From assembly GCA_944392655.1 (NCBI GenBank), contig CALXXL010000018.1, positions 1 through 40,809 on the forward strand: a stretch of DNA of 40,809 bases, in the 5' to 3' direction. The position numbers were made by a program, and so were the translations under genes. Of this stretch, positions 4,461 to 40,602 are shown piece by piece; the first letter of the stretch is position 1, and each line of letters opens with the position of its first letter. Origin of the DNA: an uncultured Victivallaceae bacterium (GTDB lineage: Bacteria; Verrucomicrobiota; Lentisphaeria; Victivallales; Victivallaceae). Below the pieces are notes generated by a model, which saw nothing but the letters and a program-made list of their open reading frames with translations, had not been told where the DNA came from and did no database searches.

Positions 4461-7142
4461 ATGAGATTATTGCTCTATCTATTATGTGCCTTTACCTTAT
4501 TGTTTGCGGCGCAAGCTACAACACCGTTGATCGGCCCGGAATACACCGGAAACGTGGATGCTCAAATTCAGGCTCAGGCGGCAAAAGATGTTTTTACCCG
4601 GTTGCTGGGCAAGGAGAGAAGTGATCAGTTCTCTATAACTATTGTGAAAAAAGATGGCAATGATTACTTTCATATCGCTCCGCAGGACGATATTATTGCC
4701 ATAACCGCATCTAACGGGGTTTCCGCATGCCGGGCGCTAAAATGGTATCTCAACAACATTTGCAATGTCGGGATTACATGGCGCGGTGACAATCTGGTCA
4801 ATCTTCCGGAAGACCTGCCAAAGGATTTTGCGCCAACCGAAGAAGCAACTCCTTTCAAATACCGTTATATCTTCAATAACTGCGTATTCGGTTACGAGAC
4901 CGCATTCTGGCATTGGGAAGATTGGGAACATATGATTGACCTGCTTGCCTTCAATGGGATTAATATGCCGGCGATGCTGGCAGGACAGGAAAAAGTATGG
5001 CAGGAAACTTACAAGGAATTCGGACTAACAAAAGAAGATTTGGATGGATTCTTTGCCGGCCCGGCATGGCTTCCATGGCAGTGGATGGGGAATCTGGACG
5101 GCTGGGGTGGTCCATTGTCTCAGCATTTTATTGACCGGCAGAGTGAACTACAAAAGAAAATTCTTGCACGGGCAAGATCGCTTGGCATGACTCCGGTACT
5201 GCCGGGATTTTCCGGCCATATACCGCAGGCAATGGCGGAAAAATTCCCGGAAATAAAATTCCATAAATTGGAATGGGCCGGTTTTTCCACTATTATTCTC
5301 GACTGGCAGGATCCGCTTTTTACCAAAATCGGGCAAACATTCCTTCAGAAACAGAGTGAAATTTACGGTACGGATCACTATTATAATATTGATCCGTTTA
5401 ACGAAATGTCTCCGCCGACATACGAACGTGACTATATCTACAATATGGCTGAAACTATTTACAACTCCATTCTCGCCGGAGATCCGGATGGTATATGGGT
5501 GGCGATGACATGGTTTGCCAAAGTTCCGGTCGATGGGCAGTGGGACATCAACAACACCCGCAATTTCTTTGATGCCATCCCCAACGATCGTATGGTTGCG
5601 CTTGAACTGTGGGGAGAATCATGGAGCGGTACCGGCTGGTACCGTCAGGGCGGCTGGTTCGGGAAGCCGTGGATATGGTGCATATTGCAGAACTTCGGTA
5701 ACCGGGTTGACTTATATGGCGGTCTGCCGCAGATTTTTGAAAATTACAGCAAAGTGCAGAATTCGCCCGACAAGGGCAACCTCCAGGGAATGGGGATAAT
5801 GTCGGAAGGCATGGGATTTAATCCGGTAGTATTTGAACTCGTTCTGGATATGATGTGGGGCGACGGGGTAAAAGATCTTGATGCATGGAAAGATTACTAT
5901 TTGACCTGCCGTTACGGGAAAGAGGTTCCGGAAGAAGTACGTCAGGCATGGGATATAATGTTTGAAGAGTGCTATACCAGACCGTGGATGATAAATTTCT
6001 CACAGTTGTGCTTTAATCCGGCTTTCACTCAAATGCCAGATCCTGCTATAATCAAATTATATCAGGCCTGGGATTTGATGCAGAAAGGAGCAGACAAACT
6101 GGGAGCAAGCTCAAGTTATCAGTTTGACCTGGTTCACCTCGGTCGTGAAGTTATGAGCCGCATGTCCGACTATATGATAAACCGGATTGCCAATGCCTAT
6201 TACAATAAAGATATTGAAGCTTTACAGAAAGCATTAAACGATCTATATGCGTACGCGGCCGACTGGGATAAACTTATGGGAGCAAATGAATATTTCCTCC
6301 TTGGAAAATGGTTGGATGATGCCCGCAAGTGGGGTTCTACTCCAGATGAAGAGCAGCACATGGAGTGGTGTGCGAAGCGGCAGATCACCGACTGGGGCGG
6401 CCTTATCGGCACCTATTCAGTAAAAGAATGGGCAGGAGTAACTACAAAATCATTACCGGAATGGCAGCTTTACGTCGAGGAATTGATCAAAGCTATCCAG
6501 GATAACCGGAATATCGATATGGCCGCCTATGAAGCAAAACGACTGAAACTGTATGAAGAATGGCTTAATAGAAAGGACGTCCTTCCATCTGAACCGCAAG
6601 GTGATGCGGTTCAAATATCAGCGGAAATGCTCGAGAAATGCGGTAAACTGCTTGAAGCGTACAAAAAGGATTCAAATTATGACAATGTCTTGCTTCAAAA
6701 TACTATTTACGGCATGGCACTTAACAAAGCGGTCACTGCAACTGCAACCGAAAACGGCCATCCGGCAACAATGGCTGTGGACGGAGACCTGACACTCGGA
6801 AGCTCATGGTGGGCTAAAGCTCCGGCATCGTTGACCGTTGACCTGGGGACCCCAACAGTGATATCAGGCATTCTGCTTACTACATACTGGGGAGATAACC
6901 GTTATTATCAATACACAATTGAAGTTTCTGAAGATGGCATTAACTGGAATATGATTATTGATGAATCTGAAAACATCAGAGTCTCCGAGCCATCTGGAAG
7001 ATTATATCCTCTGGAAGATACAGTATGCCGTTATGTACGGTTAAATATGTTGAAAAACAGCGTCAATCCATCGGTGCATGTTGTGGAGTTAAAAGTTCTC
7101 TCCTCCGCCGACATGGATACCTTGACCGGCAAACAGAAATAA
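4461..7142 (+). CDS. Secreted alpha-N-acetylglucosaminidase (GH89) with C-terminal F5/8C domain, copy 1
   Basis: Removes terminal alpha-linked N-acetylglucosamine, the NAGLU activity acting on heparan sulfate and on gastric-mucin GlcNAc caps. 893 aa. Residues 1-20 form a signal peptide (hydrophobic core, cleavage near AQA-TTP), so the enzyme is exported. An N-terminal alpha/beta domain (about 25-125) is followed by the GH89 barrel. The motif DPFNEM places the likely acid/base at Glu315, and GMGIMSEGM places the nucleophile at Glu449; both match the NAGLU family. Residues from about 750 form a discoidin/F5-8C (CBM32-like) domain with the Y-W-G-D and R-Y-V-R-L signatures. AAAGGA precedes ATG 4461 by 7 nt. 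A strong terminator follows. The N-terminal third of the mature coding region is nearly identical in DNA to the second copy. Substrate is inferred from the family. Confidence 0.93.
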   Translation: MRLLLYLLCAFTLLFAAQATTPLIGPEYTGNVDAQIQAQAAKDVFTRLLGKERSDQFSITIVKKDGNDYFHIAPQDDIIAITASNGVSACRALKWYLNNICNVGITWRGDNLVNLPEDLPKDFAPTEEATPFKYRYIFNNCVFGYETAFWHWEDWEHMIDLLAFNGINMPAMLAGQEKVWQETYKEFGLTKEDLDGFFAGPAWLPWQWMGNLDGWGGPLSQHFIDRQSELQKKILARARSLGMTPVLPGFSGHIPQAMAEKFPEIKFHKLEWAGFSTIILDWQDPLFTKIGQTFLQKQSEIYGTDHYYNIDPFNEMSPPTYERDYIYNMAETIYNSILAGDPDGIWVAMTWFAKVPVDGQWDINNTRNFFDAIPNDRMVALELWGESWSGTGWYRQGGWFGKPWIWCILQNFGNRVDLYGGLPQIFENYSKVQNSPDKGNLQGMGIMSEGMGFNPVVFELVLDMMWGDGVKDLDAWKDYYLTCRYGKEVPEEVRQAWDIMFEECYTRPWMINFSQLCFNPAFTQMPDPAIIKLYQAWDLMQKGADKLGASSSYQFDLVHLGREVMSRMSDYMINRIANAYYNKDIEALQKALNDLYAYAADWDKLMGANEYFLLGKWLDDARKWGSTPDEEQHMEWCAKRQITDWGGLIGTYSVKEWAGVTTKSLPEWQLYVEELIKAIQDNRNIDMAAYEAKRLKLYEEWLNRKDVLPSEPQGDAVQISAEMLEKCGKLLEAYKKDSNYDNVLLQNTIYGMALNKAVTATATENGHPATMAVDGDLTLGSSWWAKAPASLTVDLGTPTVISGILLTTYWGDNRYYQYTIEVSEDGINWNMIIDESENIRVSEPSGRLYPLEDTVCRYVRLNMLKNSVNPSVHVVELKVLSSADMDTLTGKQK
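4521..5026 (+). repeat. Near-identical 506-bp block, copy 1 (shared with 7407-7912)
   Basis: By eye only three mismatches separate this block from 7407-7912. Identity begins just after the signal-peptide codons and stops abruptly at 5026, after which the two genes are clearly diverged. The pattern fits gene conversion. Confidence 0.9.
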
Positions 7143-7346: not shown

Positions 7347-10025
7347 ATGAGACTCGTATTGTCACTGTTGTGTCTCTTTGCTGCATTATTCGCGGTAAAA
7401 GCAGATACACCGTTGATCGGTCCGGAATACACCGGAAACGTGGATGCTCAAACTCAGGCTCAGGCGGCAAAAGATGTTTTTACCCGGTTGCTGGGCAAGG
7501 AGAGAAGTGATCAGTTCTCTATAACTATTGTGAAAAAAGATGGCAATGATTACTTTCATATCGCTCCGCAGGACGATATTATTGCCATAACCGCATCTAA
7601 CGGGGTTTCCGCATGCCGGGCGCTAAAATGGTATCTCAACAACATTTGCAATGTCGGGATTACATGGCGCGGTGACAATCTGGTCAATCTTCCGGAAGAC
7701 CTGCCAAAGGATTTTGCGCCAACCGAAGAAGCAACTCCTTTCAAATACCGTTATATCTTCAATAACTGCGTATTCGGTTACGAGACCGCATTCTGGCATT
7801 GGGAAGATTGGGAACATATGATTGACCTGCTTGCCTTCAATGGGATTAATATGCCGGCGATGCTGGCCGGACAGGAAAAAGTATGGCAGGAAACTTACAA
7901 GGAATTCGGACTCAACAAGGAAGACCTCGATAACTTCTTTTCGGGTCCGGCATGGTTCCCATGGCAGTGGATGGGCAACCTTGACGGATGGGGCGGTCCG
8001 CTCTCACAGGCATTTATTGACCGGCACAGCGAAATGCAGAAAAAGATCCTTGCCCGTTCAAGATCTCTGGGTATGACTCCTGTGTTGCCAGGCTTCTCAG
8101 GACATATTCCCAAAGCCTTGGCAGCAAAATTCCCGGAGATGAAGTATCATAAACTTGAATGGTGGGGATTTGACACTATTATTCTCGACTGGCAGGATCC
8201 CATGTTTACCGAAATCGGTAAAACATTCCTCGAAAAACAGCGGGAAATATATGGAACAGACCATTATTACAATATTGACCCATTCAATGAAATGGCGCCG
8301 CCGACATACGAACGTGACTATATTTACAATATGGCCGAAACTATTTACAACTCCATTCTCGCCGGAGACAAAGACGGTATATGGGTAGCCATGACCTGGT
8401 TTGCCAAAATACCGGTAGACGGCAATTGGGACATCAACAATACCCGCAACTTCTTCGACGCAGTACCCAATGACCGGATGCTGGCAATTGAATTGTGGGG
8501 TGAAAACTGGGAAGGAACTGGCTGGTACCGTCAGGACAGCTGGTTCGGGAAACCGTGGATCTGGTGTATTCTGCAGAGCTTCGGCAACCGGGTAGATATA
8601 TATGGCGGTCTGCCGCAGATTTTCACCAACTATAACAAAATGATAAACTCTCCGGAAAAAGGCAATATCCAGGGCATGGGTATAATGACGGAAGGCATGG
8701 ACTTCAACCCGGTAGTCTATGAGCTTGTGCTGGATATGATGTGGGGAGACGGTGTTCAGGATCTCGATGCGTGGAAAGAGTACTATCTCACCTGCCGTTA
8801 CGGCAAGGATATACCGGAATCGGTACGTCAGGCGTGGGATATACTTTTTGAAGAATGCTATACAAAATCACAGCTTATAAATATGACCCAACTGTGCTTC
8901 ACTCCGGGCTTTACTCAGATCCCGGACACTAGCGTGGTTAAACTCTATCAGGCGTGGGAGCTGATGCAACAGGGTGCTGATCAGCTGGGCAATTGTGCCA
9001 GTTATCAGTTTGACCTTATAAACCTGGGGCGCGAAGTAATGAGCCGCATGTCGGACTATGTTATAAACCGCATAAGTCAGGCATACAGCAATAAAGACGT
9101 CAAAGCACTGGAAGAATCCAGAAATGCACTGTTTGCGTATATCGCCGATTTTGATAAACTTATGGGCACAAATGAATATTTCCTCCTTGGCAAATGGTTG
9201 AACGACGCCCGCAAGTGGGCTTCATCTCCTGAAGAAGTACAGCACATGGAATGGTGTGCCAAGCGGCAGATCACCGACTGGGGCGGGCATATCGGACCAT
9301 ATTCAGTTAAAGAGTGGTCAGGATTGGGTACCAAAGCAGCCCCTGAATGGCGGATATATACGGATGAACTTATCAAATCGATTGAGGAAAACCGTGCTGC
9401 AGATATGACCGCTTACAACAACAAACGGCTGGAATTCTACAATCAGTGGTTAAACACAAAAGACGAACTGCCGTTTGAACCGCAGGGCAACGCGGTGGAA
9501 ATTTCAGCAGAAATGCTTGAAAAATGTGGTCAATTGCTTGAAGAATATAAAACTAAAACCAGTTATAATGAAATTGTCCGTCAGCAGGGGGTTGCCGGTC
9601 TCGCCCGTAATAAAAAAGTGATTGCTACAAATTCTGAAAATGGCGCTCACCCGGAATCAATGCTGGTTGACGGTGATCTGACCCTTGCCAGTTCATGGTG
9701 GGCTACTGCTCCGGCTACAGCCACTGTTGATATCGGAGCGCCGGCAGTAGTTGCCGGATTTCTGCTCACCACCTACTGGGGCGACAACCGTTATTACCAG
9801 TATACGATTGATATTTCTGAAGACGGCGTAACCTGGACCACCGTAGTGGACGAATCAGACAATACCAAAGTAGCAGGTCCGCAGGGAATACTCTATCCGA
9901 TTGATGGCACTGTTTGCCGCTATGTCCGGCTGAACATGCTTAGAAACAGCGTGAACTCATCAGTTCATGTTGTTGAACTCAAAGTGCTTTCACCTGATGA
10001 CATGAAAACAATCGAGCAGCAGTAA
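7347..10025 (+). CDS. Secreted alpha-N-acetylglucosaminidase (GH89) with C-terminal F5/8C domain, copy 2
   Basis: Tandem paralogue of the preceding gene, 892 aa, same architecture: signal peptide (residues 1-19), alpha/beta domain, GH89 barrel with Glu315 in DPFNEM and Glu449 in GIMTEGM, and a C-terminal F5/8C domain from about residue 750. Both catalytic glutamates are kept, so both copies should be active. After the shared N-terminal block the proteins differ at many positions, including the segment near residues 385-400 and the C-terminal binding domain, so the two may have drifted in linkage or aglycone preference. It has its own promoter and terminator, so the pair can be expressed independently. 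AGAAAGG stands upstream of ATG 7347. Confidence 0.93.
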   Translation: MRLVLSLLCLFAALFAVKADTPLIGPEYTGNVDAQTQAQAAKDVFTRLLGKERSDQFSITIVKKDGNDYFHIAPQDDIIAITASNGVSACRALKWYLNNICNVGITWRGDNLVNLPEDLPKDFAPTEEATPFKYRYIFNNCVFGYETAFWHWEDWEHMIDLLAFNGINMPAMLAGQEKVWQETYKEFGLNKEDLDNFFSGPAWFPWQWMGNLDGWGGPLSQAFIDRHSEMQKKILARSRSLGMTPVLPGFSGHIPKALAAKFPEMKYHKLEWWGFDTIILDWQDPMFTEIGKTFLEKQREIYGTDHYYNIDPFNEMAPPTYERDYIYNMAETIYNSILAGDKDGIWVAMTWFAKIPVDGNWDINNTRNFFDAVPNDRMLAIELWGENWEGTGWYRQDSWFGKPWIWCILQSFGNRVDIYGGLPQIFTNYNKMINSPEKGNIQGMGIMTEGMDFNPVVYELVLDMMWGDGVQDLDAWKEYYLTCRYGKDIPESVRQAWDILFEECYTKSQLINMTQLCFTPGFTQIPDTSVVKLYQAWELMQQGADQLGNCASYQFDLINLGREVMSRMSDYVINRISQAYSNKDVKALEESRNALFAYIADFDKLMGTNEYFLLGKWLNDARKWASSPEEVQHMEWCAKRQITDWGGHIGPYSVKEWSGLGTKAAPEWRIYTDELIKSIEENRAADMTAYNNKRLEFYNQWLNTKDELPFEPQGNAVEISAEMLEKCGQLLEEYKTKTSYNEIVRQQGVAGLARNKKVIATNSENGAHPESMLVDGDLTLASSWWATAPATATVDIGAPAVVAGFLLTTYWGDNRYYQYTIDISEDGVTWTTVVDESDNTKVAGPQGILYPIDGTVCRYVRLNMLRNSVNSSVHVVELKVLSPDDMKTIEQQ
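7407..7912 (+). repeat. Near-identical 506-bp block, copy 2 (shared with 4521-5026)
   Basis: Partner of 4521-5026 at an offset of 2886 bp. It covers the codons for mature residues 21-189 and ends in the codons around the EFGL sequence. Confidence 0.9.
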
Positions 10026-25132: not shown

Positions 25133-28100
25133 TCATATCCTCAAATTATCCCACATATCCTGCACCATTTTCAGTGAAATTTTTCTTTTCGGTCGAACCT
25201 CCGGAGCAAATACCGCCAATCGCAACTCCTCCAGTGCAATAAATAATTCGCAAAGCTGAGGATGCGCGGAAATATCACCATCCGCCGCAATCCCAAAGCG
25301 CTCCAGCAGCGGGGCAAGCTCCTCAAGCTTTTCTTCATCTTTAAGCGGAGAGCTGTTCATCCGTTCCAGTCTGATTTTCATCCCGCGCAGATAACGGCTG
25401 TATCCCTCCAGAGCATTCATTGTGTTGATGAATCCGCTCCGGAACAGAAATTTCATCTGTCTTTTCACATCTGCGACACCATCCGGCGCGCGTCGTCCGA
25501 TCTTCCGCCGCAAGTCATCAATCTGTTCAATTTTATCAGCCCAGTCTGTCAACTCAAGGATTATTGCATCAACCTCATCCGCTAAATTCATTTTCGCTTC
25601 AGTCGCGCGTTCAAGAAAAAGAGCTTCAGAACGGATATCCCATAAATCATCCACTCCTCCCATAGTGCGCGCCACCGCCCAATTCACAATGGAATCCACA
25701 TAAGAACGATCGACATCGTCGTAAAATAATGATAACTTTACATTATTGGCTAATTTTATCCCTTTCCGCACAAATTTTACAAAATCCATGTTTTGACAGC
25801 GGAACAATGCGATTATGCCTCTACGGTGCATAAGTTCAGCATCACTCTTGCGCAGAAACAGCGCCCGGCTTATTCCGTCATCAGAACTGCATAGTGCGGG
25901 ATAAACTGTTATTTTGTCATTATCCGGTAAAACTGTCTCTTCCGGCAGTGATTCGTGTCCCGGCCATCCGCTCCCAGGAGTTACAGCATAATTTCTGGCC
26001 AATCTGCCGCTGACACGACTGCCGGAATCCAATCCGGCAGGCACGCTGGTTAAATACTCTTCAACAGCACCTGAATTATTAAGTACACCTATCTTCATAA
26101 CCAGATAACCTGGCAATTCATAATCACCAAAATCAGCCGGTATAAAAGCACCTTCATAATTTTCCGAAAGGTAGTCGCACAAAGTCTCTTTCAAACTCAA
26201 ATCAACTGGAACCCTGCCGGAACGGAATTCGTTCATATACCCTTCTACTGCCGAGATAACAGGATTAATTGTCATCCGTTTGGTCTTGGGCAACCGCCGC
26301 AACATGAACTCCACCTTTTCCGGCAGATATCCGGGAATCAGATAATCCAGATGCGTTCCGGAAATAATATTCAATTCAGCCCTTGGAATCATAACCGCAA
26401 CCCCATCGGCCGGAGATTCCGGATCAAATGTATACTGCAATGGATATCTTTCGCCTGAAATCTCCATGAAATCAGGGTAATCCGCCATTTCTACCGGATG
26501 ATATTGATAGAACATCATCTCATCATCAGGCAGCGGAAATACCCGTTTGCCATTCAGATATTGTTCCAGAGATTTTGTCGATACAACTTCACGCGGCAGA
26601 CGTTTCATTAAGGATTCAAAAATTGCCTCTTTATCAACCACTGTTCCAGGACGGCGCACCTTTTCCTCCAACAGCCATAATGCCGCCAGACGATTAAGAT
26701 GCGCTTTTATCTGTTTATTACGCGATTGTATCAACCCCTCGCACAGTCCCTCGCGGATAAATATTTTTCTGGCTTCATCCGGATCAACCGCACCATAGTG
26801 AACTCTCCTGCCGCTGTGAATCAGCAATCCTCCGGAAACTACCCGCTCTCTGGCATAGACGAATCCGGATTTAGGCTCAAAATAGGCCTGATCATAAGTT
26901 GCGCTGCATAGATGCGGTGCAACCAATTCCAGAAATTCCGGCTGAATAATAGCGTTCTGCCGGGCAAATACCCTTGTTGTCTCAACCAACGCCAGCGACA
27001 TCACCCATTTCGGCGGATTTTTCAATTTAGCCAGGCCAGAACCGGGGAAAAGTTGAAATCTGCGGTTGCCGGTTCCCTGATAATATCCACGCTCGCTGAA
27101 ATAACACCCTATATTACGCGGTATGCCTGAGAGAACAGCCTGATGGATTATATTCACTGGATAATCCGCCACCTCTGACCACAATTTATCCGGGACCTGC
27201 CACTCCTGATCACGGACAAATTCATAAATATCCGCGGTAAGATTACGCCACTCCATAACCCGGTTGGCATTTAAGAAGTTGCGTTTGGCAAGCTTTCTCA
27301 GCGAAGTATTGGATGTACTGTTGGATACTAAAAAATTCCATATATTGAGTATTGTAATAAAATCCGACTCTTTATCCCGCCACTGAGCGTGAGCGGTATC
27401 TGCCGCCTGCTGTTTATCTTGCGGTCTTTCCCTGGGATCGAGAATCGAGAGAAATCCCACAATAATCATCACCTCATGCAAAACTCCGGCTTCCGACGCC
27501 TTCAATACCATTTTGGCCAAATGCGGATCCAATGGAAACCCGGCAATTTTTCTGCCCGCCGCAGTTATACTTCCCTGTTCATCAATCGCCCCTATATCCT
27601 GTAAGGTTCTCCTGCCCTCGCGGATAAGATTGTTCAATGGAGGATCAATAAATGGGAAATTCTCTATTTTCCCCAGGCGCATCATCGCCATTTGCAGAAT
27701 TACACCGGCAAGACTTGTCCGCCTTATCTCCGGATCAGTATACTGCGGTGCACGCGATAAATCATCTTCACTGTAAAGATATACGCATATCCCGTCTGCC
27801 AAGCGCCCGCATCGGCCGCGTCGCTGCTTGGCGCTGGCCTGCGAAATCTGTTCTATCTGCAACTCCTGAATGCCTGTACGCCCATTGTAACGGCTTATTC
27901 GGGCTAAACCGGAATCAATTACATAGTGAATCCGGGGAATGGTAACCGATGTTTCAGCAACATTGGTCGCCAGAATAATACGCCTCCGGTTGCCGGGTGA
28001 AAAAATTCTCTGCTGATCGGCCATTGATAATCGGGCAAACAGAGGAAGTACTTCGGTATTTTTTAATTTTCTACCTTCAAGTAAATCGGCAGCATCGCGA

Positions 28101-29050
28101 ATCTCACGTTCTCCCGGCAGGAAAACCAGAATATCACCATGAGGATCAATTTCATCAATAAACTGCACTGCCCGGGCAATATGGCTGGATAACTCCTCGT
28201 CATCTTCCGGAGGCAGAAAAAAGTCCTCCACCGGATATCCACGCCCCTCTACCATAATTACCGGCGCATTATTAAAAAATATCGAAAAACGCTCGGCATC
28301 CAGTGTAGCAGATGAAATTATCAGCTTAAGCTCCGGACGTTTACGGCACAGCCGCTTAAGAAATCCCAGAAGGAAGTCTATATTCAGACTGCGTTCATGA
28401 ACTTCATCTATAATCAACGTATCATAGTAAAGCAGATCCGGGTCACCGGCAATTTCGGAAAGCAGCATGCCGTCAGTCATAAATTTGACCACCGTATCCC
28501 CGGAGGTACGATTGTCAAACCTCACCTTGTATCCAACCTCGCGCCCAATTGTACACTGAAGCTCATCCGCTACGCGACCAGCCATCGCGGTTGCCGCCAA
28601 CCGCCGCGGCTGAGTACAGCCTATGGCTCCAAATTTTCCCCGCCCCAATTCCAGCGCTATCTTGGGAAGTTGCGTAGTCTTGCCGCTGCCCGTAGAACCA
28701 CATACAACAATAACCTGATTCTCTTTTAGCGCGTTCAAGATCTCCTGCCGATGGGCAGATATCGGCAGATTTTCCGGATATTCTATCTTCAAACGGTCGG
28801 CAACGCCAACCAGGGAACGCTCTTTGGCCTTTAAGGCCAATTTTATGAACTGCTCAATTTCACGACGGCAATCCCGTCCGGCCTGCAGATGGTTTGACAG
28901 CAGTTCTATACGCCGCCGTAAACGAACCCGGTCGTACTCTCTTACCTCTTTTAAGATAGAGAGCAACTCAGGCATCTCATTTAATAACGGTGAAACCTCT
29001 TTATTCCATGGCCGATGCGCTCCATTGCGGCCGGTTCGTTTTATCGCCAT
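25133..29050 (-). CDS. hrpA: ATP-dependent DEAH-box RNA helicase HrpA
   Basis: 1305 aa, matching long HrpA. Walker A is GSTGSGKTT (residues 118-126) and the DEAH-like motif is DEVH (215-218). SATLD and QRRGRCGR follow as motifs III and VI. After the helicase core come the HA2/OB region and the long C-terminal DUF3418-type domain ending SLKMVQDMWDNLRI. HrpA resolves stalled ribosomes and processes some mRNAs. The start ATG 29050 lies 10 bp inside the end of the MlaA-hydrolase gene, so translation is probably coupled. Confidence 0.95.
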   Translation of the reverse strand: MAIKRTGRNGAHRPWNKEVSPLLNEMPELLSILKEVREYDRVRLRRRIELLSNHLQAGRDCRREIEQFIKLALKAKERSLVGVADRLKIEYPENLPISAHRQEILNALKENQVIVVCGSTGSGKTTQLPKIALELGRGKFGAIGCTQPRRLAATAMAGRVADELQCTIGREVGYKVRFDNRTSGDTVVKFMTDGMLLSEIAGDPDLLYYDTLIIDEVHERSLNIDFLLGFLKRLCRKRPELKLIISSATLDAERFSIFFNNAPVIMVEGRGYPVEDFFLPPEDDEELSSHIARAVQFIDEIDPHGDILVFLPGEREIRDAADLLEGRKLKNTEVLPLFARLSMADQQRIFSPGNRRRIILATNVAETSVTIPRIHYVIDSGLARISRYNGRTGIQELQIEQISQASAKQRRGRCGRLADGICVYLYSEDDLSRAPQYTDPEIRRTSLAGVILQMAMMRLGKIENFPFIDPPLNNLIREGRRTLQDIGAIDEQGSITAAGRKIAGFPLDPHLAKMVLKASEAGVLHEVMIIVGFLSILDPRERPQDKQQAADTAHAQWRDKESDFITILNIWNFLVSNSTSNTSLRKLAKRNFLNANRVMEWRNLTADIYEFVRDQEWQVPDKLWSEVADYPVNIIHQAVLSGIPRNIGCYFSERGYYQGTGNRRFQLFPGSGLAKLKNPPKWVMSLALVETTRVFARQNAIIQPEFLELVAPHLCSATYDQAYFEPKSGFVYARERVVSGGLLIHSGRRVHYGAVDPDEARKIFIREGLCEGLIQSRNKQIKAHLNRLAALWLLEEKVRRPGTVVDKEAIFESLMKRLPREVVSTKSLEQYLNGKRVFPLPDDEMMFYQYHPVEMADYPDFMEISGERYPLQYTFDPESPADGVAVMIPRAELNIISGTHLDYLIPGYLPEKVEFMLRRLPKTKRMTINPVISAVEGYMNEFRSGRVPVDLSLKETLCDYLSENYEGAFIPADFGDYELPGYLVMKIGVLNNSGAVEEYLTSVPAGLDSGSRVSGRLARNYAVTPGSGWPGHESLPEETVLPDNDKITVYPALCSSDDGISRALFLRKSDAELMHRRGIIALFRCQNMDFVKFVRKGIKLANNVKLSLFYDDVDRSYVDSIVNWAVARTMGGVDDLWDIRSEALFLERATEAKMNLADEVDAIILELTDWADKIEQIDDLRRKIGRRAPDGVADVKRQMKFLFRSGFINTMNALEGYSRYLRGMKIRLERMNSSPLKDEEKLEELAPLLERFGIAADGDISAHPQLCELFIALEELRLAVFAPEVRPKRKISLKMVQDMWDNLRI

Positions 29051-31044
29051 TCCCGGAGAAGCTCCAATATGTACCCCTGTACCACAGGCAGATAAAGCGC
29101 TCCAAGATGACCGCCGCGATCAAAAACAATCAACCGTTCGCCAAAAGTGTTTTCCAGGAATTCACTATCATTGTCGGACAGCAGGAAATCATTCCTGCTG
29201 TGAAAAACATGTATCCTTTCATCCGCTGCAAGTTTATCCCCAATTACCCTCATCGTGCTTCGCGCCTTTAAGTCTTCCAGCGCAAGATTGGGATTATTGT
29301 ATCTGGCACGATAACCCGGCAACAAGACTTTATTCATATACCAGTTGAAATCCAGCTGATTTATCTCCAGATACAATGGATAACGGTTACCCCACTCATA
29401 AGGTGTCCTCAACTCCGGAATACCACGATAGCGCTGGGCTGTAAATATTGCATCGCGCAACGTTTGCCGGAATGCAACGCCAACTGCGGCAGCGGCGGTC
29501 TCCGCATCAATTGAATCTATTGCCATAATGCCGGCAGGTGATGAGTAGAGAGTCACGGCATCGGCAATTCTTTTCTGGGCCTCTTCTGCGCTCCAATTTT
29601 CAGCGATTTTCATCATGGAATCGACTTTTTCAACCGCATAAACCGGATCAACCGGCGGATTAATAGCAATCACACCCTTGATCGGCAAACTGAGCAGGCT
29701 TTCATAATTTTCTGCAATGAACATCGACTGAAGCGCTCCGAGTGAATAGCCTACCAGAATCACCGATTCAGGTTTGATATCTTTATTCTCAATAAGATCT
29801 TCTATTGCCCGATTTACCGCAAAAGCCAGCTCTTCCGCATCCTGCGGAGTATAACCGCCGCAATAATCCGGAGTCGCAGCCATCAAAAACTTAGCATTAA
29901 GCGTATTGGTAAAAGTCGCCGCCGGATAACCGCAATCATGCGCCATCTGAGCCAATGCCGTAGCTGCGGCAGAACTGTAATGCCCACCGATACCGGTTAA
30001 TACTATCACCAGAGGAGCATCTTCTCCACTTTCTTCAGCACGGTAATACTTGTAATCCAAATCAGGACGCCCATCAATAAGCTCAAGCGAACGGACTTCA
30101 CCATTTCTGGAAAAATCACTGTTCCATGGCGAAAGATAAGGCCATATTGTCTCACTCCGTTCACCGAACCATAAATGCCGCATACTATCCTGAGCTGCTG
30201 ATCCATTCCCATAACCGTCTAATTTTACCATATTTGCATTGCTGAATCTCGAGGCATAAAGCTCTTTATCTTCGCATGAAGCTGTATTGACGTCTTCAGC
30301 CGCGGCGACATATTTATGGTCGTTGACTTTTATATAACGCTGCTGCAATGAAAGATCGCGCAACAGCTCATACCCATCGACATAACTCCGTTGCAGCATA
30401 TCAAAATCTCCATATCCGGACGCCAAACGGTTAAATCCGGTAAACGCCTGGCCGCCGTAAAAATAGCTCTTGGGATCCAAGGCATAATCGAATATAGCGC
30501 CAACCCCATCCCGGACATTGGTCGGCCCATACAACGGCAGAAACAGATAGCACCCCGGGCCGATTCCCCAGCAGGCAAAAACCTGTCCGAAATCTTCATC
30601 CTGCCGCTCCAATCCAAAATGCGGCTCGGCAACTTCAAAAAATCCAAGTATCCCAACCGTGGTATTCAATCCAAAACGACCGAGTTCTATTGCACTGCCC
30701 AGGAATTTTGCCTGGAACAGACAACTGAACATCCGAACCGTAAACCCTATGTTGTCAGTAAAATTATTAAATCCGGTAATCACACAACGTGGAAAAATTG
30801 TTCCCCATACATATCCCAACGGGCGATATCCCCAGCGAAGAATAAATTCGTTGGTATCATACATTGCCCGGTTGAAAGGTTCTATTGGATCCGTACCGCC
30901 CAAATCGGTACTTAATGTATAAACCGGTGGAACATTATTCTCAACTGGCGTATTATCTGAAGTATCATTGTCACTTGAAGCACAACCGGCAAGCAATAGC
31001 ATTACACTAAATGCAACCGGCAATAAAATGAAATGTTTTTTCAT
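29041..31044 (-). CDS. Lipoprotein fusing MlaA (VacJ) to an alpha/beta hydrolase
   Basis: 667 aa. A lipobox LLLAG-Cys21 gives a lipoprotein signal, so it is anchored in a membrane, presumably the outer one. Residues about 52-245 match MlaA/VacJ: DPIEPFNRAMYDTNEFI, then FGLNTTVGILGFFEVAEPHFGL, DFGQVFACWGIGPGCYLFLPL and GPTNVRDGVGAI. MlaA extracts mislocalised phospholipids from the outer leaflet. MlaA is normally about 250 aa; here a second domain follows from about 340: TGIGGHYSSAA (oxyanion region), nucleophile Ser434 in GYSLGA, Asp619 in SRNDF and His646 in GGHLGA, a complete hydrolase triad. AAGGAG precedes ATG 31044. First gene of the run to hrpA, aroE and prepilin peptidase. A lipase/phospholipase role is inference. 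Confidence 0.85.
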   Translation of the reverse strand: MKKHFILLPVAFSVMLLLAGCASSDNDTSDNTPVENNVPPVYTLSTDLGGTDPIEPFNRAMYDTNEFILRWGYRPLGYVWGTIFPRCVITGFNNFTDNIGFTVRMFSCLFQAKFLGSAIELGRFGLNTTVGILGFFEVAEPHFGLERQDEDFGQVFACWGIGPGCYLFLPLYGPTNVRDGVGAIFDYALDPKSYFYGGQAFTGFNRLASGYGDFDMLQRSYVDGYELLRDLSLQQRYIKVNDHKYVAAAEDVNTASCEDKELYASRFSNANMVKLDGYGNGSAAQDSMRHLWFGERSETIWPYLSPWNSDFSRNGEVRSLELIDGRPDLDYKYYRAEESGEDAPLVIVLTGIGGHYSSAAATALAQMAHDCGYPAATFTNTLNAKFLMAATPDYCGGYTPQDAEELAFAVNRAIEDLIENKDIKPESVILVGYSLGALQSMFIAENYESLLSLPIKGVIAINPPVDPVYAVEKVDSMMKIAENWSAEEAQKRIADAVTLYSSPAGIMAIDSIDAETAAAAVGVAFRQTLRDAIFTAQRYRGIPELRTPYEWGNRYPLYLEINQLDFNWYMNKVLLPGYRARYNNPNLALEDLKARSTMRVIGDKLAADERIHVFHSRNDFLLSDNDSEFLENTFGERLIVFDRGGHLGALYLPVVQGYILELLREWR

Positions 31045-32757: not shown

Positions 32758-35514
32758 ATGAAAAAAATTATTGGATGTCTTTTTATGGCAATGGCACTAT
32801 TCACTGGTGCAAGTGGATTTGCAGATAATTCTGTATCCATGACAACTAAATCAGGCCTTATAATAAAAACACAGGTATGTGAACTGTCAATGGGATCAAG
32901 AGTTATAGCAATTGAACCGCCATGGAATGCACGTTATTTTATGAGTATTGGCGATATAACTGAATTTGAACACTCGGAAAACAGTGTAAAAATGATTCAG
33001 ACAAGTTCATCAAAATTCAAATTGGAAAACTATTCCGCAACAGTGCAACCGGATGGGGCAATTACAGTTGAACTCAGCGGGAAAATGATCGAAAATCTGC
33101 CTTCAATGCTGGAATATTCAGCTTTTTGTGTACCGGAATATGTATTCAGCGGATGTAGATTTTCAGGGATAACAATGAACGGAAGCAAGTTTTCCGGAGA
33201 GATCAGTCCCGTGGTCAACAAGGAAATGGATCGACTGGCGGAAAATTTTAAAGAGCTGACAGTTGAATCACCTTTTGGAAAGATAAAATTTGAAATCCTC
33301 GAAGGTCCGGGAATGAATATGATTGACCGCCGCGGAACCACCTTTATGGATATGCCGTGCTTCTGGATCGGCAATCCGAGTATCCCTCTGGAATTCAACA
33401 AATCCTGCAAATCTGTAATCAAATTAACGTTTACTGTTTCCGGCACGCTTAATCCGGCAGAACCGATAACGGTCAAAGATTACCCGGATGAAATTCTGAT
33501 TGCAGAAAACACCTTGATATCCCCAATGAAGATTGATACGCCTCAAATGATACCTCCCCCAAAGGAGATAGAATATTCTTCCGAAATTATGTCTGTTCCG
33601 GCAGACAGCTCATGGTCAATCGCGCCAGAGTTGCTGAAAGAGGATGGTCAACGTTTGAATCGTGCCTTTGAGCGTATTCTCAATCACGATCTTAAGCTGA
33701 ATATGTTCAATCGCGATATAGCAGTAGGCATCTCATGCAACGCCGGCGAATGCGAAAGCAAATTGGTATCGGAACAGGCATTGATAAAGATCGAATATAA
33801 GCCGGAACTGGCGGAAGAAGAATACTATCTCACGGTTTCTACCAATGGCGCAGTTATAAGTGCATCGACTCCGCGGGGAGCATTCTATGGATTGATCACA
33901 TTGAAAAATCTTTATCAGGGCAACGGCTTTGCCGGAGCTGTTATTCATGACTATCCGGATATGCCAATCCGCAGCGTACACCTGTGCCTCGATGCAGGTG
34001 ACCGTACCTATTTTAACCTGGTTGAGGATGTGTTCGCTCCAACAAAAATCAATGCGATTATCGGTGAAGTCGAATATGTACAATGGAATGCCACCAAACA
34101 CCTCGGTATACATAAGCCCACCGGCATGACACCGGAAGAACTGGCAGAATTTGCCCAATTGTGTTATGACAACTATATAGAATTCATACCTCTGCTGCAA
34201 ACGCTGGGACATTCCGAATGGCTCTTTGTCAACGGCAAAAATACCGATATGGCAGAAGACCCGGATGAACCATACGCATATAATGTTTCCCATCCTGACA
34301 CATATCCTCTTATGACTGCAATTCTGGATGAGTTGCTGGGAATATGCAATGTAAAATATCTCCATATCGGTCATGATGAAGTAACCATGCGCGGACGATT
34401 CCCTTATCGGCCGGAAAATGTGGAAAAAGGAATAAAAAAGATTGTCTTTGACGACGTGATGTTCTATTACAATTATGCCAAAGCTCACAATATCCGCATT
34501 ATGATGTGGCATGATATGTTTATGAATGAGGACGAATCAGGAGTATCTTCAGGCGGCCCGCCGCACAATCTCTACACTCTGCGCAAAGAGTTCCCGCGTG
34601 ATATAATTATATGCGTCTGGCGATACAGCGGTCAGAACTTCCCTGAGTTTGAACTGTTGAAGAAAGAAGGGTTTGAAACTATTGGCTGTTCATGGTACAA
34701 TAAAGGGAATCCCGAGCAGCTGGCGGCTGAAGTTGCCAGAACAAAATCACTTGGTATGATGCAGACAACATGGGCCGGATATTTCGGCAGCACTACATTG
34801 CTTACTGATAACTTCCACCAGGTGGAGCCGTATGTACGTGGCGGCAGCCACTTCTGGAACAGTGACAGAACGGTCAATAACTTTGATTTCAGCAGAATTC
34901 TCTGCAATATGTTATATGATGCTGATGTTATTCATCCGGAACAGCAGACAAACGGTTTTATGGTCGATCTCTCTGGCGTTGCCAACCTGAAGCTCACACC
35001 GGAATTTGCCCCATTCCTTTTGAATTCAACCAGTGGGATGGAAAACCTTCCTGAAGAAGACTATTATGGCGAAGTCAAGTTTAAGATTCCCCAGATTGAC
35101 GGCGAAAATGCGGCAATAGCTTTTAAATCAAGAAACAACCCGCTCTTCCCTGATACAGAGATTCAGATTGATATAAACACCAAGGCAACTGAACTATACA
35201 TTCTGAATACTTCGGTCGGTGTTATTCCCGCGCCAAGAACGGTTATGGGAACGACAACATTATATTATGCTGATGGAACAAGCTATAGTTATCAGGTAAA
35301 ATATGGTGTTGATGTGGCAATTTCCAAAAGTGATTTCAATTATAAACTAAGTACCTACAACTCATATACATGGTCTTTTGACGGTGTCACACAGCACATC
35401 TGGTATTACACCATAAAAAATCCGCATCCGGATAAAGAGATTGCCAGAATAGGTTTTTCCGGTTCACCGGAAGAGTTCAGTTATTATATTCTAGGACTGT
35501 CTTTTATCCAGTAA
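32758..35514 (+). CDS. Secreted GH20-type beta-N-acetylhexosaminidase with extra N-terminal domain
   Basis: 918 aa with a signal peptide (residues 1-21). An N-terminal region (about 24-255) is a beta-rich domain I do not recognise. A GH20b-like domain (about 262-400) ends in the typical STPRGAFYGLITL segment and DYPDMPIR. The barrel follows with the catalytic pair Asp540-Glu541 in HIGHDEV, where most GH20 enzymes have HIGGDE. These retain the substrate-assisted mechanism on terminal beta-GlcNAc or GalNAc. From about 740 a C-terminal beta-rich domain follows. AAAGGAG precedes ATG 32758. The family call is firm on the DE pair; exact specificity is not known. It has a strong terminator behind it. 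Confidence 0.78.
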   Translation: MKKIIGCLFMAMALFTGASGFADNSVSMTTKSGLIIKTQVCELSMGSRVIAIEPPWNARYFMSIGDITEFEHSENSVKMIQTSSSKFKLENYSATVQPDGAITVELSGKMIENLPSMLEYSAFCVPEYVFSGCRFSGITMNGSKFSGEISPVVNKEMDRLAENFKELTVESPFGKIKFEILEGPGMNMIDRRGTTFMDMPCFWIGNPSIPLEFNKSCKSVIKLTFTVSGTLNPAEPITVKDYPDEILIAENTLISPMKIDTPQMIPPPKEIEYSSEIMSVPADSSWSIAPELLKEDGQRLNRAFERILNHDLKLNMFNRDIAVGISCNAGECESKLVSEQALIKIEYKPELAEEEYYLTVSTNGAVISASTPRGAFYGLITLKNLYQGNGFAGAVIHDYPDMPIRSVHLCLDAGDRTYFNLVEDVFAPTKINAIIGEVEYVQWNATKHLGIHKPTGMTPEELAEFAQLCYDNYIEFIPLLQTLGHSEWLFVNGKNTDMAEDPDEPYAYNVSHPDTYPLMTAILDELLGICNVKYLHIGHDEVTMRGRFPYRPENVEKGIKKIVFDDVMFYYNYAKAHNIRIMMWHDMFMNEDESGVSSGGPPHNLYTLRKEFPRDIIICVWRYSGQNFPEFELLKKEGFETIGCSWYNKGNPEQLAAEVARTKSLGMMQTTWAGYFGSTTLLTDNFHQVEPYVRGGSHFWNSDRTVNNFDFSRILCNMLYDADVIHPEQQTNGFMVDLSGVANLKLTPEFAPFLLNSTSGMENLPEEDYYGEVKFKIPQIDGENAAIAFKSRNNPLFPDTEIQIDINTKATELYILNTSVGVIPAPRTVMGTTTLYYADGTSYSYQVKYGVDVAISKSDFNYKLSTYNSYTWSFDGVTQHIWYYTIKNPHPDKEIARIGFSGSPEEFSYYILGLSFIQ

Positions 35515-35628: not shown

Positions 35629-37962
35629 TTACTTAAGTTCAACAGTGCCGAAATAGCTTGGCAGATGGAATTTAAATCCGCCACGTCCCCAGGATTGAAC
35701 TTTGCCTGAACTGTTCTCGATACGATGGACATTGACTTTCCACTGCTGTCCGGCAGCCGGAGCAGGAGGTGTCACACCAGGATGCTTTTCAGTATTATAC
35801 ATCTTGTCTTCCATCTGAGTGGCATATCGGGTAAAATTGGTTGCTGTCGGGCGGATAAACACTTCTGCACTCCAACCGGTTTCCGTTGGCGCAGTGCGGA
35901 CCTTCCAATCACCGTTCCAGAACACATTGCCGTTGCATGCGGCTTCATCAAACATATTGCCGGCAAAGTCAAAGCAATAGTGGGCATATGAACCGATATT
36001 TTCCTGCGTGTCCGGCAATACCTGAAGCATTATCTCCACACAATCCGGGTTGGCAAATACCGCATCGTCAAACTTGGTTCGCGGATTCTCGGGAAGAGGA
36101 GTCTTGGCCGGAACATCAAACGCCATATAAACGCCGTCATCGGTATAACTCATATAGACCTTGGTCGGAGCATTGTCTTCCGAACCATCTGCATTTTTCA
36201 ACAACAATATCGTTGCATCATCCCATTCTCCTGGAGCGAGCACACCGTCAAGCACCACAGCACTCGTCTGTTTCTTTATTTCAGCTTTCGGCAGTTCAGC
36301 TGCAAGCAATGACTTTGCGCGTTCAATTCTGGCCTGAATACGATCAAGACCAAACGCATAACCGACATTGAACGGTTTGCCATTCAATGTATTCATCTTA
36401 GCAACTTCATCAAGCGCCGCCTGATACTGTTCAACAGACAGATCTTTCAGCTGATCGCGGAAACCGGTATATTCAACGTCGTCAAACACGGTAAGAATAC
36501 TGCGAAGATTATTGATCGGCTTTACAAATGACGGATCGAACACCATCGCCAGAGCGGTATTATATGACCGTTCTGCATTGTATGCTTCCGGATTCCACAG
36601 ATAATCGCAGGTGGAAAGGAACCGCAACGCTTCATAGTTGCGGCAGCCATTACGATAGAAACAGCCGTTGAGATAAATCATATCGGCATTATCCCGTTCC
36701 ATGCCGGGATAGAATCTGGTTTCCCAGCGCGGAAGCGGAGAATAAAATCCATTGGAGTTATCAAAAAGGAAGATCTCCTGACCATTCAAAAGATTTTGCA
36801 AACGTTCAATTTCATATCCCTGAATTTCCGGAGAGAATACTCCACGGCCGGTCCAAACCCACATAACCTCTTTGGGCGCAGCTTTCCCCCAGTCACGGAT
36901 ATACTTGTCAACCATCGGACGGCCAACGCCATGGCTGAATGCATACGGTGCGCCAACCATACTCAGTTTAAGGTTCGGAAAATCCGGAATAAGAGTATCA
37001 TAAAGATACTTCATCATATAACCATGCGCTTCACCAATCGAGTTGTGAAACATATCCATCTCTTCCTGGTTGTAAGCGTAGAAACCTTCATTAATATCGT
37101 ACGGAGTAAGGTCATCAGCGCCGATCATAATATAAGTATAACCGCTTTCTGCCATTTTGCGGCATGCATCGGCCAGCATCTTGAGATCAGCCGGATCAGC
37201 AATATTGAACTGTTTATTGGTAGCCGGCTTGCTGTAAATATGCGGCAATGCCATAAATTCCATTGCCCCCATATCGCTCAGTTTCTTGATTGCCTCAAAC
37301 ACATGCTTATTCTGTTCCCACCATTCCGGTTTGGTCCAGTTGTTCTGAAGAATTGATGCGGTGCTGCCGACTTTGAACTGTAACGCAAACAAATAACCGT
37401 CTTCAGATTGATTGGAAAGATAGTCACTGATAAAACGGTGACGCCATACCGGATAATCTTCCACTTCGGCGATTTTCTGTATTGTTTCGCCATCTTTCTC
37501 ATAAAGCAGCTGAGCCAGAGAACAGAAACCGAAAAGAACACCCTTTTCATCAGTTCCTGTAATAATTACCGACATCTTTTCCGGACTATTTTCCAACAAT
37601 TTCAAGGCATAGCCCTGAGTCGGTAAAAGCGGCATATCGTAATTGTAAAGTTTTTGAATTTCAGCATTTGCCAGTAAACCGGCATGAATTTCCAATGCGA
37701 CGGCATCTTCACCATGTTTTAACGAGGAGACAGCATCGCGATAGAATTTTTCACCCAGCTTGCAAACTTCCGGCATTTCACCACCATGCCAGATAACATT
37801 CACTTTGTCCGGAGTCACTGCGGCTTCCTGATATTCAGAAAGTACATAGTGAGGTTCCGGATAGATCTTTCCAATCGGGTGCGGAGGGGCAATTTCAGCT
37901 TGCACTGCACCAACGGAAAATACCGTTAGCACAGATACAGCAATCTGATAAAATTTGTTCAT
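35629..37962 (-). CDS. Secreted GH84-like beta-N-acetylglucosaminidase with CBM9-like C-terminal domain
   Basis: 777 aa, signal peptide residues 1-22 (ending AVQA). Residues about 30-170 resemble the GH20b/N-terminal domain of GH84 enzymes. The barrel follows, with adjacent Asp283-Asp284 in IGADDLTPYD matching the catalytic DD pair of GH84 O-GlcNAcase-like enzymes. From about 567 a CBM9/DOMON-like beta-sandwich begins (LDGVLAPGEWDDA, then YMSYTDDGVYMAFDVP) and extends to the end. Such binding modules often hold the enzyme on carbohydrate. AAGGA lies before ATG 37962. It is convergent with the GH20-type gene. The GH84 assignment is by motif only; other GH20-like clans cannot be excluded. Confidence 0.68.
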   Translation of the reverse strand: MNKFYQIAVSVLTVFSVGAVQAEIAPPHPIGKIYPEPHYVLSEYQEAAVTPDKVNVIWHGGEMPEVCKLGEKFYRDAVSSLKHGEDAVALEIHAGLLANAEIQKLYNYDMPLLPTQGYALKLLENSPEKMSVIITGTDEKGVLFGFCSLAQLLYEKDGETIQKIAEVEDYPVWRHRFISDYLSNQSEDGYLFALQFKVGSTASILQNNWTKPEWWEQNKHVFEAIKKLSDMGAMEFMALPHIYSKPATNKQFNIADPADLKMLADACRKMAESGYTYIMIGADDLTPYDINEGFYAYNQEEMDMFHNSIGEAHGYMMKYLYDTLIPDFPNLKLSMVGAPYAFSHGVGRPMVDKYIRDWGKAAPKEVMWVWTGRGVFSPEIQGYEIERLQNLLNGQEIFLFDNSNGFYSPLPRWETRFYPGMERDNADMIYLNGCFYRNGCRNYEALRFLSTCDYLWNPEAYNAERSYNTALAMVFDPSFVKPINNLRSILTVFDDVEYTGFRDQLKDLSVEQYQAALDEVAKMNTLNGKPFNVGYAFGLDRIQARIERAKSLLAAELPKAEIKKQTSAVVLDGVLAPGEWDDATILLLKNADGSEDNAPTKVYMSYTDDGVYMAFDVPAKTPLPENPRTKFDDAVFANPDCVEIMLQVLPDTQENIGSYAHYCFDFAGNMFDEAACNGNVFWNGDWKVRTAPTETGWSAEVFIRPTATNFTRYATQMEDKMYNTEKHPGVTPPAPAAGQQWKVNVHRIENSSGKVQSWGRGGFKFHLPSYFGTVELK

Positions 37963-38187: not shown

Positions 38188-40602
38188 ATGAAAATTATTA
38201 TAATCGGAGCGGTAGCGGCAGGAGCCAGCGCAGCAGCCAGACTTAGAAGACTCGATGAAAATGCGGAAATAGTCCTTCTTGAACGCGGTCAATATATGTC
38301 GTATGCCAACTGTGGATTACCATATCATCTCGGCAATGTTATTCCGGACAGAGATTCTCTGCTTGTTATGCCGGAGAAAAAGTTTAAAGCCTGGTTCAAT
38401 ATCGATGTCCGACTCGGCAACGAAGTCATCGCTATAAATCGTGCAAATAAGAGCGTATCTGTCCGCAAAACCGATGGAACTGAATATGAAGAAAATTACG
38501 ATAAACTTCTTCTCGCCACAGGTTCCAGGCCAATAGATCTGCCATTACCTGGAATTGACGACTCACGCATTCATACCTTATGGACTATTCCAGATATGGA
38601 CGCAGTGAAAAAACTGGTGGGAGAAGGTGTAAAAAAAGCTGTTGTCGTGGGTGGCGGATTTATTGGTCTTGAAACAGCAGAAAATCTGCACGCCTGTGGC
38701 ATTGAAGTAACAATTGTCCAGCATTCCACTCATGTTATGCCTAATTTTGACCGGGAAATGGCCTATTTTATCCATTCTGAACTGGCAATGTCCGGCATTG
38801 ACGTACTGCTTAACAGCGAAGTTACAGGCTTTACCTCTACCGGCGAAGCAGTAACCGTAAATCTGAAAGATGGCGCTGGCTTATCTGCCGATTTAGTGAT
38901 AATCAGTGCCGGAGTAAAACCGAATTCTGAGTTGGCTGGAGACGCCGGTTTGCTGCTTGGAGCACGCGGACATATTCAGGTGAATAAATTTCTGCAAACC
39001 TCAGATGAAAACATCTATGCTGCCGGAGACGCTATTGAATTTACCGACCCAATAACCGGTACGCCTTCGGCAATACCTCTTGCCGGACCGGCAAATAAAC
39101 AGGGACGCATTGCCGCCGGCAATATGCTGGGCGGAAAAACCGCATATCCAGGTAGTTTCGGTACTTCAGTGATAAAAATAGGAAGTTTAACTGCCGCAGG
39201 AGTCGGTCTTACCGAAGGCCGTCTTTTGCAACTCGGTCTGCCATTTCATAAAGTCTATACCCATCCCGCATCCAACGCCTCATATTATCCGGGTGGCGAA
39301 CAGTTGCATATGAAACTGCTCTTTGCGCCGGATGGAAAGATTTACGGTGCCCAGATTGTCGGGCGGAAAGGAGTTGATAAACGTCTTGACGTAATCGCTT
39401 CAGCCATGGAATCCGACAGAACGGCTCCTGATTTGGCAGAACTTGAACTTGCCTACGCTCCGCCGTACAGTTCGGCAAAGGATCCGGTCAACTTCCTCGG
39501 TATGATTGCTCAGGACATTCGTGACGGCCTGACTGAACTTGCCTATGCTGACTCTATTCCGGAAGACGCAATCTTAATTGACGTCCGGGAAGAAGCGGAA
39601 CATCAGCTTGGCTCAATTCCAGGTGTGCAAAATATCCCATTGGGGCAACTGCGCACTGCGTTGGCCGGACTGGATAAGAGCAAAGAGTATATTGTGCATT
39701 GTCAAGTTGGCTTGCGCGGTTATCTGGCGGAAAGAATTATGAAGCAGAATGGCTTCCGGGTAAAAAATCTCTCCGGCGGCTACCTCACATGGAAACAGTA
39801 TTTTGCTCCGCTTCCCGCAACTAAAAAAGTTCCGACTTCTAAGGTTCCTTCCACAACCTTGGAGGCAAAAACAGTTCTTGACGTCCGCACCCTCGCCTGT
39901 CCGGGACCAGTTGTCCGGTTGAAAAATGAGTTTGAAAAACTCAATCAGGGAGAAACATGTAAACTTATGGCGGCAAAATCATTTGCACCTGATCTTGCCG
40001 CATGGAGTTCCTCAAACGGCAACACTGTTATTTCCCAACAAAACAAAGACGATTATTTGGAAGCGTTGATTATGAAAGGCGCTCCCGCAACTACGGATGC
40101 CGGAGCCGTTGCAACAAATAATACAGTACAGGTAAAAAACGGAGCCATAATCCTTTTCAGCAATGATTTTGACAAAGTGATGGCCGCATTAATTATCGCC
40201 TGCGGGATGGCTGCTGCTGGCATGAAAACCGGAATATTCTTCACTTTCTGGGGATTGAATGCGCTGCGCCGCAATCCGGCTCCGCCGGTAAAAAAGAGCT
40301 TTATTCAAAAGATGTTCGGATTTATGATGCCGTGCGGAGTGAATAAACTTGTTCTTTCCAAAATGAATTTCGGTGGTATGGGCACTGCAATGATGAAAGA
40401 CATTATGAAAAAGCAAAACGTCATGTCTCTGCCCGACTTACTGCGGCAGGCCAGAGAATTGGGAGTGAAATTCACTGCCTGTGAAATGGCGATGAACGTT
40501 ATGGGCATAACCCGCGAAGAACTGATTGAAGTTGATGAGGTTGCCGGTATCGCCAGCTTTGTTGAATCCGCAAAAGGCAATGCCAATACACTGTTTATCT
40601 GA
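38188..40602 (+). CDS. CoA-disulfide reductase-rhodanese-TusA-DsrE fusion protein
   Basis: 804-aa multidomain cytosolic flavoprotein for reduction and transfer of sulfane sulfur. Residues 1-440: FAD/NAD(P)H oxidoreductase with GAVAAGASAA, redox Cys42 in YANCGLPYH, and VVVGGGFIGLETAENL, as in CoADR/NADH polysulfide reductases. Residues about 450-548: rhodanese with active Cys505 (HCQVGLRGY). About 562-632: TusA-type domain with Cys571 in ACPGPVVRL. About 650-804: DsrE-like domain with Cys765 (ACEMAMNVMGI), preceded by further Cys in IIACGMA and MPCGVNK. So persulfide could pass along Cys505, Cys571 and Cys765 to or from the flavin site. Similar fusions are known in anaerobes. It is monocistronic, with a weak AGAAAG site before ATG 38188. 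Confidence 0.9.
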   Translation: MKIIIIGAVAAGASAAARLRRLDENAEIVLLERGQYMSYANCGLPYHLGNVIPDRDSLLVMPEKKFKAWFNIDVRLGNEVIAINRANKSVSVRKTDGTEYEENYDKLLLATGSRPIDLPLPGIDDSRIHTLWTIPDMDAVKKLVGEGVKKAVVVGGGFIGLETAENLHACGIEVTIVQHSTHVMPNFDREMAYFIHSELAMSGIDVLLNSEVTGFTSTGEAVTVNLKDGAGLSADLVIISAGVKPNSELAGDAGLLLGARGHIQVNKFLQTSDENIYAAGDAIEFTDPITGTPSAIPLAGPANKQGRIAAGNMLGGKTAYPGSFGTSVIKIGSLTAAGVGLTEGRLLQLGLPFHKVYTHPASNASYYPGGEQLHMKLLFAPDGKIYGAQIVGRKGVDKRLDVIASAMESDRTAPDLAELELAYAPPYSSAKDPVNFLGMIAQDIRDGLTELAYADSIPEDAILIDVREEAEHQLGSIPGVQNIPLGQLRTALAGLDKSKEYIVHCQVGLRGYLAERIMKQNGFRVKNLSGGYLTWKQYFAPLPATKKVPTSKVPSTTLEAKTVLDVRTLACPGPVVRLKNEFEKLNQGETCKLMAAKSFAPDLAAWSSSNGNTVISQQNKDDYLEALIMKGAPATTDAGAVATNNTVQVKNGAIILFSNDFDKVMAALIIACGMAAAGMKTGIFFTFWGLNALRRNPAPPVKKSFIQKMFGFMMPCGVNKLVLSKMNFGGMGTAMMKDIMKKQNVMSLPDLLRQARELGVKFTACEMAMNVMGITREELIEVDEVAGIASFVESAKGNANTLFI

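Follow-up and report, generated by a model that had tools for sequence, protein, structure and literature searches.

What does a gene encode that joins an MlaA domain to a serine hydrolase in one reading frame, and is such a gene real? The window (the whole stretch of DNA analyzed, 40,809 nucleotides from the draft genome of an uncultured Victivallaceae bacterium) contains one (Table 1). It has an ATG start and 667 codons with zero internal stops. Its product is predicted from the sequence to be a lipoprotein and is probably located at the outer membrane. The preliminary description had placed both domains in this one reading frame, and the Pfam matches and predicted folds bear this out. PF04333 matched at 171 bits (cutoff, 25) and was covered from profile position 2 to 192 of 195. 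The C-terminal half scored 22.7 bits with Abhydrolase_1 and 23.6 bits with Abhydrolase_6. These scores are under the curated Pfam cutoffs of 25.8 and 26.3, respectively, but the matches are real. The downstream helicase gene begins inside the fusion gene, with an overlap of 10 bases. A helicase gene likewise follows the fusion in a genome of the same genus (G001).

Table 1. Positions in the window of the fusion gene, its parts, and its downstream neighbor
Feature	Coordinates	Strand	Evidence
MlaA/MlaZ-MlaY fusion lipoprotein gene, 667 aa	29041..31044	-	ORF, Pfam
Signal peptide (residues 1-20) and lipobox Cys21 (LAG-C)	30982..31044	-	Sequence, lipobox scan
MlaA domain, residues 51-236	30337..30894	-	Pfam E 3.1e-50 (second run 2.2e-51); 5nuo fold match
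Linker, low confidence, residues 246-270	30235..30309	-	pLDDT <50 at 246-264
MlaY-type alpha/beta hydrolase domain, residues 271-667	29044..30234	-	Model pLDDT 90.3; hhalign and BLASTP to MlaY
Catalytic Ser434 codon (predicted nucleophile, GYSLG; equals MlaY Ser187)	29743..29745	-	Conservation, MlaY alignment
Catalytic Asp619 codon (equals MlaY Asp388)	29188..29190	-	Conservation
Catalytic His646 codon (equals MlaY His415)	29107..29109	-	Conservation
HrpA-type helicase gene, downstream neighbor, outside the system	25133..29050	-	ORF, Pfam

The preliminary description had allowed that a sequencing error might have joined two genes. The window comes from a draft genome, and related families carry the two genes separate and adjacent, which would suit a merger by assembly or sequencing error. 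Against this, the identical single-ORF layout recurs in independent assemblies. The same fusion was found in dozens of genera, in a type strain, and in a complete genome. It is full length in Victivallis vadensis DSM 14823, the type strain (720 aa; L219), and in Lentisphaerota strain zth2, whose chromosome sequence is complete (751 aa; L177). We dropped the artifact on these grounds and consider its chances practically nil. The search for this architecture across Lentisphaerota, which had been proposed along with the original claim, recovered the fusion throughout the window's family and order and in other families of the class. A few fusions were found elsewhere in the phylum. Named relatives that encode it are nearly all Lentisphaeria, and many are Victivallales.

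The full chain was modeled with AlphaFold2 on 26 aligned fusions (pLDDT 86, pTM 0.86). The hydrolase domain alone was modeled on 21 domains. The concern that the C-terminal half might fail to fold as an alpha/beta hydrolase did not materialize (pLDDT 90.3, pTM 0.91). This half matched 1,253 PDB chains at an E value of ≤0.001, including the bacterial membrane phospholipase A 6i8w. The MlaA half matched the solved MlaA structures (5nuo series) with a TM-score by target of up to 0.84 and an rmsd of about 2.5, and by this comparison the MlaA ring fold is present in the model. The linker, at residues 246 to 264, is the sole poorly modeled internal stretch between the two domains. The high pTM suggests that the MlaA and hydrolase domains have a defined mutual arrangement. 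The three catalytic residues named in the preliminary description were all exact, with Ser434 inside the GYSLG motif. When 45 homologous hydrolase domains were aligned, the Ser and the His were conserved in 45/45 and the Asp in 44/45. The sole Asp exception is the MlaY homologue of Fusobacterium (L151 3785-5068), in which Glu replaces the catalytic Asp.

Pseudomonas aeruginosa encodes a related pair of proteins. MlaZ (PA3239) is a second MlaA-family protein that is proposed to hand outer-leaflet phospholipid to MlaY (PA3238), and MlaY is a periplasmic lipase whose part in degrading phospholipid is supported by genetics (PMC11977310, PMC11131202, PMC12569750). One report gives the MlaY active site as Ser187, Asp388, and His415 (PMC11977310). 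Our reference sequences were the adjacent hydrolase and VacJ-family genes of a P. aeruginosa plasmid record. The plasmid hydrolase gene was identified as mlaY because its triad-aligned residues, S187, D388, and H415, equal the published positions. The fusion hydrolase matched MlaY with an hhalign probability of 100 (E value, 3.9e-43) and with 28% identity by BLASTP (E value, 9e-36). S434, D619, and H646 align exactly with S187, D388, and H415. By these alignments, the fusion hydrolase is an MlaY homologue. The MlaA half has 36% identity to the adjacent MlaZ over 137 aa.

The fusion is a single-chain member of the MlaZ-MlaY extract-and-degrade kind that has already been described. Both systems combine an MlaA-family lipoprotein with a homologous alpha/beta hydrolase that has the same Ser/Asp/His triad. 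In P. aeruginosa, neighboring genes arranged Y-Z encode the two as separate proteins, whereas the fusion is one chain in the order Z-Y. P. aeruginosa also has the canonical MlaA-MlaC pathway, whereas the window genome does not encode MlaC. The idea that such a system had never been described was dropped, since MlaY-MlaZ is in the literature. What looks new is that the two are one chain and that MlaC is replaced. The literature search retrieved no report of the fusion, of Mla in this phylum, or of the exclusion of MlaC; the primary MlaYZ paper may mention the fusion or the exclusion. Homologues of mlaY and mlaZ are likewise adjacent, as Y-Z pairs, in Skermanella and Fusobacterium. On Skermanella plasmids (L152 and L226), they are flanked on one side by an RND transporter gene together with one hypothetical gene and on the other by a gene of the TamB family, whose product is another lipid transport protein.

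We consider it likely that this single-chain MlaZ-MlaY extracts phospholipid from the outer membrane and that the attached hydrolase then degrades it. The lipoprotein would be anchored to the outer membrane, on its inner face. Phospholipids misplaced in the outer leaflet would be drawn through the channel of the MlaA ring. The periplasmic serine hydrolase, which is of the MlaY type and covalently attached, would sit where MlaC does in Escherichia coli and would receive the lipid directly in its pocket. It would cleave the lipid, probably by deacylation to a lyso-lipid and a fatty acid. Lipid removal would then end in degradation at the outer membrane and not in MlaC shuttling to the inner membrane. 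The outer membrane location, lipid extraction, the hydrolytic activity, its substrate and product, and the intramolecular hand-over are parts of the scheme that we infer. As a counterpoint to a degradation end point, MlaE, MlaF, and MlaD are retained and could receive the lipid or lyso-lipid by another route.

The position of the hydrolase can be compared with E. coli, in which MlaC docks under the MlaA channel, takes the lipid, and is recruited by the C-terminal tail of MlaA (PMC10245069, PMC10719372). The hydrolase is joined where this tail begins in E. coli MlaA. Loss of the MlaC-recruiting tail through the fusion was considered as a discriminating feature. It was unsupported, since the MlaC-linked MlaAs of the phylum are mostly without the tail as well. 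Capture followed by hydrolysis is strengthened by the homology to MlaY, the near absence of MlaC alongside MlaY, and the adjacent gene pairs in neighboring families. The 'remove and degrade' function suggested in the preliminary description is the best-supported reading of our analysis.

The distribution of MlaY and MlaC was obtained by cross-tabulating the lists of MlaA, hydrolase, and MlaC matches from 388 genomes of the phylum. MlaA was present in 153 of these. It occurred with the hydrolase only in 105, with MlaC only in 44, with both in 1, and with neither in 3. The hydrolase was found without MlaA in 0/388 genomes. The exclusion between hydrolase and MlaC gave a Fisher p value of about 1e-33, which is not to be read as a probability, since the genomes are related and the independent switches are few. 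Closer to the window, MlaA was found in 50/61 genomes (the window genome and 60 relatives), with the hydrolase fused or adjacent in 49/50. This count includes two drafts (G022 and G044) in which the MlaA and hydrolase parts are divided, in whole or in part, between separate short contigs. MlaC (PF05494) had no match in the window genome and none in 60/61 of the genomes searched. G047 is the only MlaC genome among the 61. It encodes mlaC beside mlaA, and this MlaA is the only one there without a hydrolase. From these sequence matches, MlaY appears to replace MlaC as the partner of MlaA.

The sole genome with both partners, G206, contains two mlaA genes at separate loci, the first within an mlaEFDCA operon and the second within a fusion. 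The operon is complete and encodes a short MlaD of 152 aa. Between them, L159 1973-3844 and L160 1-3347 (G206:C1) cover the operon and the fusion. This genome offers a natural comparison. The three MlaA genomes with neither partner are G290, G293, and G323; in G290, the MlaA gene is at a contig end. In G293 (L169 4159-7363), the MlaA gene lies beside what appears by eye to be an MMPL/RND-type transporter gene, with no MlaC or hydrolase. Roseomonas (L227) also has an MlaA gene beside an annotated MMPL/RND-type transporter gene and again no MlaC or hydrolase. Such a transporter is possibly a third type of MlaA partner. A broader proposal is that, in Lentisphaeria and related groups, retrograde transport by MlaA and MlaC was replaced by an extract-and-destroy enzyme of one polypeptide. 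MlaA would then be a modular extractor with an exchangeable carrier or lipase, and MlaEFD would be independent of it. We give this proposal an even chance of being right.

Two other accounts of the fusion bear on these data. One is that the MlaA part is mainly an outer membrane anchor or porin-binding platform and that the hydrolase acts on some other periplasmic ester, for example, a dietary or cell wall ester. The fold matches of the hydrolase do include many unrelated esterases and dehalogenases, and its substrate is unreadable from the sequence. Its homology to MlaY, a lipase whose role in phospholipid degradation has genetic support in P. aeruginosa, argues against this account. So do the strict co-occurrence of MlaY with MlaA among the 388 genomes, the mutual exclusion with MlaC, and the conservation of the MlaA fold. 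We regard this account as quite improbable.

The other account is that the fusion makes lyso-lipid, which MlaEFD carries to the inner membrane. The fusion would then be part of a modified Mla route and not an end point. MlaE and MlaD were found in 58/61 genomes, and the fusion is near an mlaEFD or MCE cluster in G021, G032, and G057, which favors such a route. The absence of MlaC from 60/61 genomes argues against it. MlaD and MlaE are also present in 11/61 genomes without MlaA, and no MlaE or MlaD was detected in two fusion-bearing genomes that are 95 to 97% complete (G034 and G039). Because each is present without the other in some of the 61 genomes, the fusion and MlaEFD look mutually independent. 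The check for mlaBCDEF in the window genome had a divided result. MlaE, MlaF, and MlaD are encoded at another locus, on contig C2 (L070), and MlaC is not encoded. This MlaD is long (334 aa), and long MlaD belongs to MlaEFD systems without MlaA and MlaC (PMC10665443), which is a further point against the route. We consider the lyso-lipid route rather unlikely and prefer extraction followed by degradation at the outer membrane. Divergent from the mlaEFD genes of the window genome is a gene for a protein of 891 aa that has a membrane anchor at its N terminus and matched no Pfam family (L070 6913-9588). By eye, it looks like an AsmA-type protein.

LpxC was found in 59/61 genomes, including the window genome, which leads us to expect an asymmetric outer membrane that bears lipid A. 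LpxC was used in place of LptD (PF04453), which matched in 4/61 genomes only and was uninformative as an LPS marker. PldA was found in 0/61 genomes, and the E. coli control was positive. PldA (OMPLA) destroys mislocalized outer-leaflet phospholipid (PMC11131202), and the same role is proposed for the fusion. PldA is a beta-barrel that acts in the outer leaflet, whereas the fusion hydrolase is a predicted periplasmic alpha/beta hydrolase that would be fed by MlaA. The minimal MlaEFD system of Veillonella parvula resembles that of the window genome in its long MlaD and its lack of MlaC. Veillonella is without MlaA (PMC10665443), whereas the window genome keeps MlaA, joined to a putative lipase. 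The window genome shares the MlaA fold and MlaE, MlaF, and MlaD with the canonical OmpC-MlaA-MlaC-MlaFEDB system of E. coli. It differs in its lack of MlaC and in the hydrolase attached past the MlaA core, on the MlaC docking side.

If this reading is true, destruction alone could maintain outer membrane lipid asymmetry, with neither PldA nor an MlaC shuttle, and MlaA would be an extractor whose partners are interchangeable. The fusion would then be physical evidence for direct lipid hand-over from an MlaZ-type protein to an MlaY-type lipase, which has so far been proposed from genetics. For structural work, it also offers a stable target in a single chain. The separation of MlaA from MlaEFD bears on the long dispute over the direction of MlaEFD transport. 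Surveys that use Pfam would miss the MlaY partner, because MlaY scores below the Pfam hydrolase cutoffs.

Several families of the window's order encode the two proteins as separate adjacent genes in the order Z-Y; other families are fused. The separate hydrolases in the order carry their own signal-like N termini. The hydrolase tree set apart the MlaY of proteobacteria and fusobacteria, a clade of fusions from other families in the class and phylum, and a clade of Lentisphaeria in which split and fused forms both occur. It requires the state to change twice between fused and split. In the MlaA tree, the hydrolase-linked MlaAs of the phylum are apart from the MlaC-linked ones, and the split forms from Lentisphaeria diverge outside the fused ones. 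The history is therefore either a pair of fusions or a single fusion plus a single split. The two trees imply few independent switches between MlaY and MlaC. One fusion from a distant family (G345:C107, L164 1868-3874) is placed by both trees within the fused clade of Lentisphaeria. It is on a contig of 13.6 kb and is either a horizontal transfer or a contaminating contig.

The window contains other genes of interest. One ORF (38188-40602) encodes pyridine nucleotide-disulfide oxidoreductase, rhodanese, TusA, and DsrE-type domains. The window also encodes tandem NAGLU-type alpha-N-acetylglucosaminidases with F5/8 type C domains (4461-7142 and 7347-10025) and GH20-type and NAGidase genes (32758-35514 and 35629-37962). 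We note in passing that the NAGLU-type, GH20-type, and NAGidase genes may be used for mucin or glycan use.
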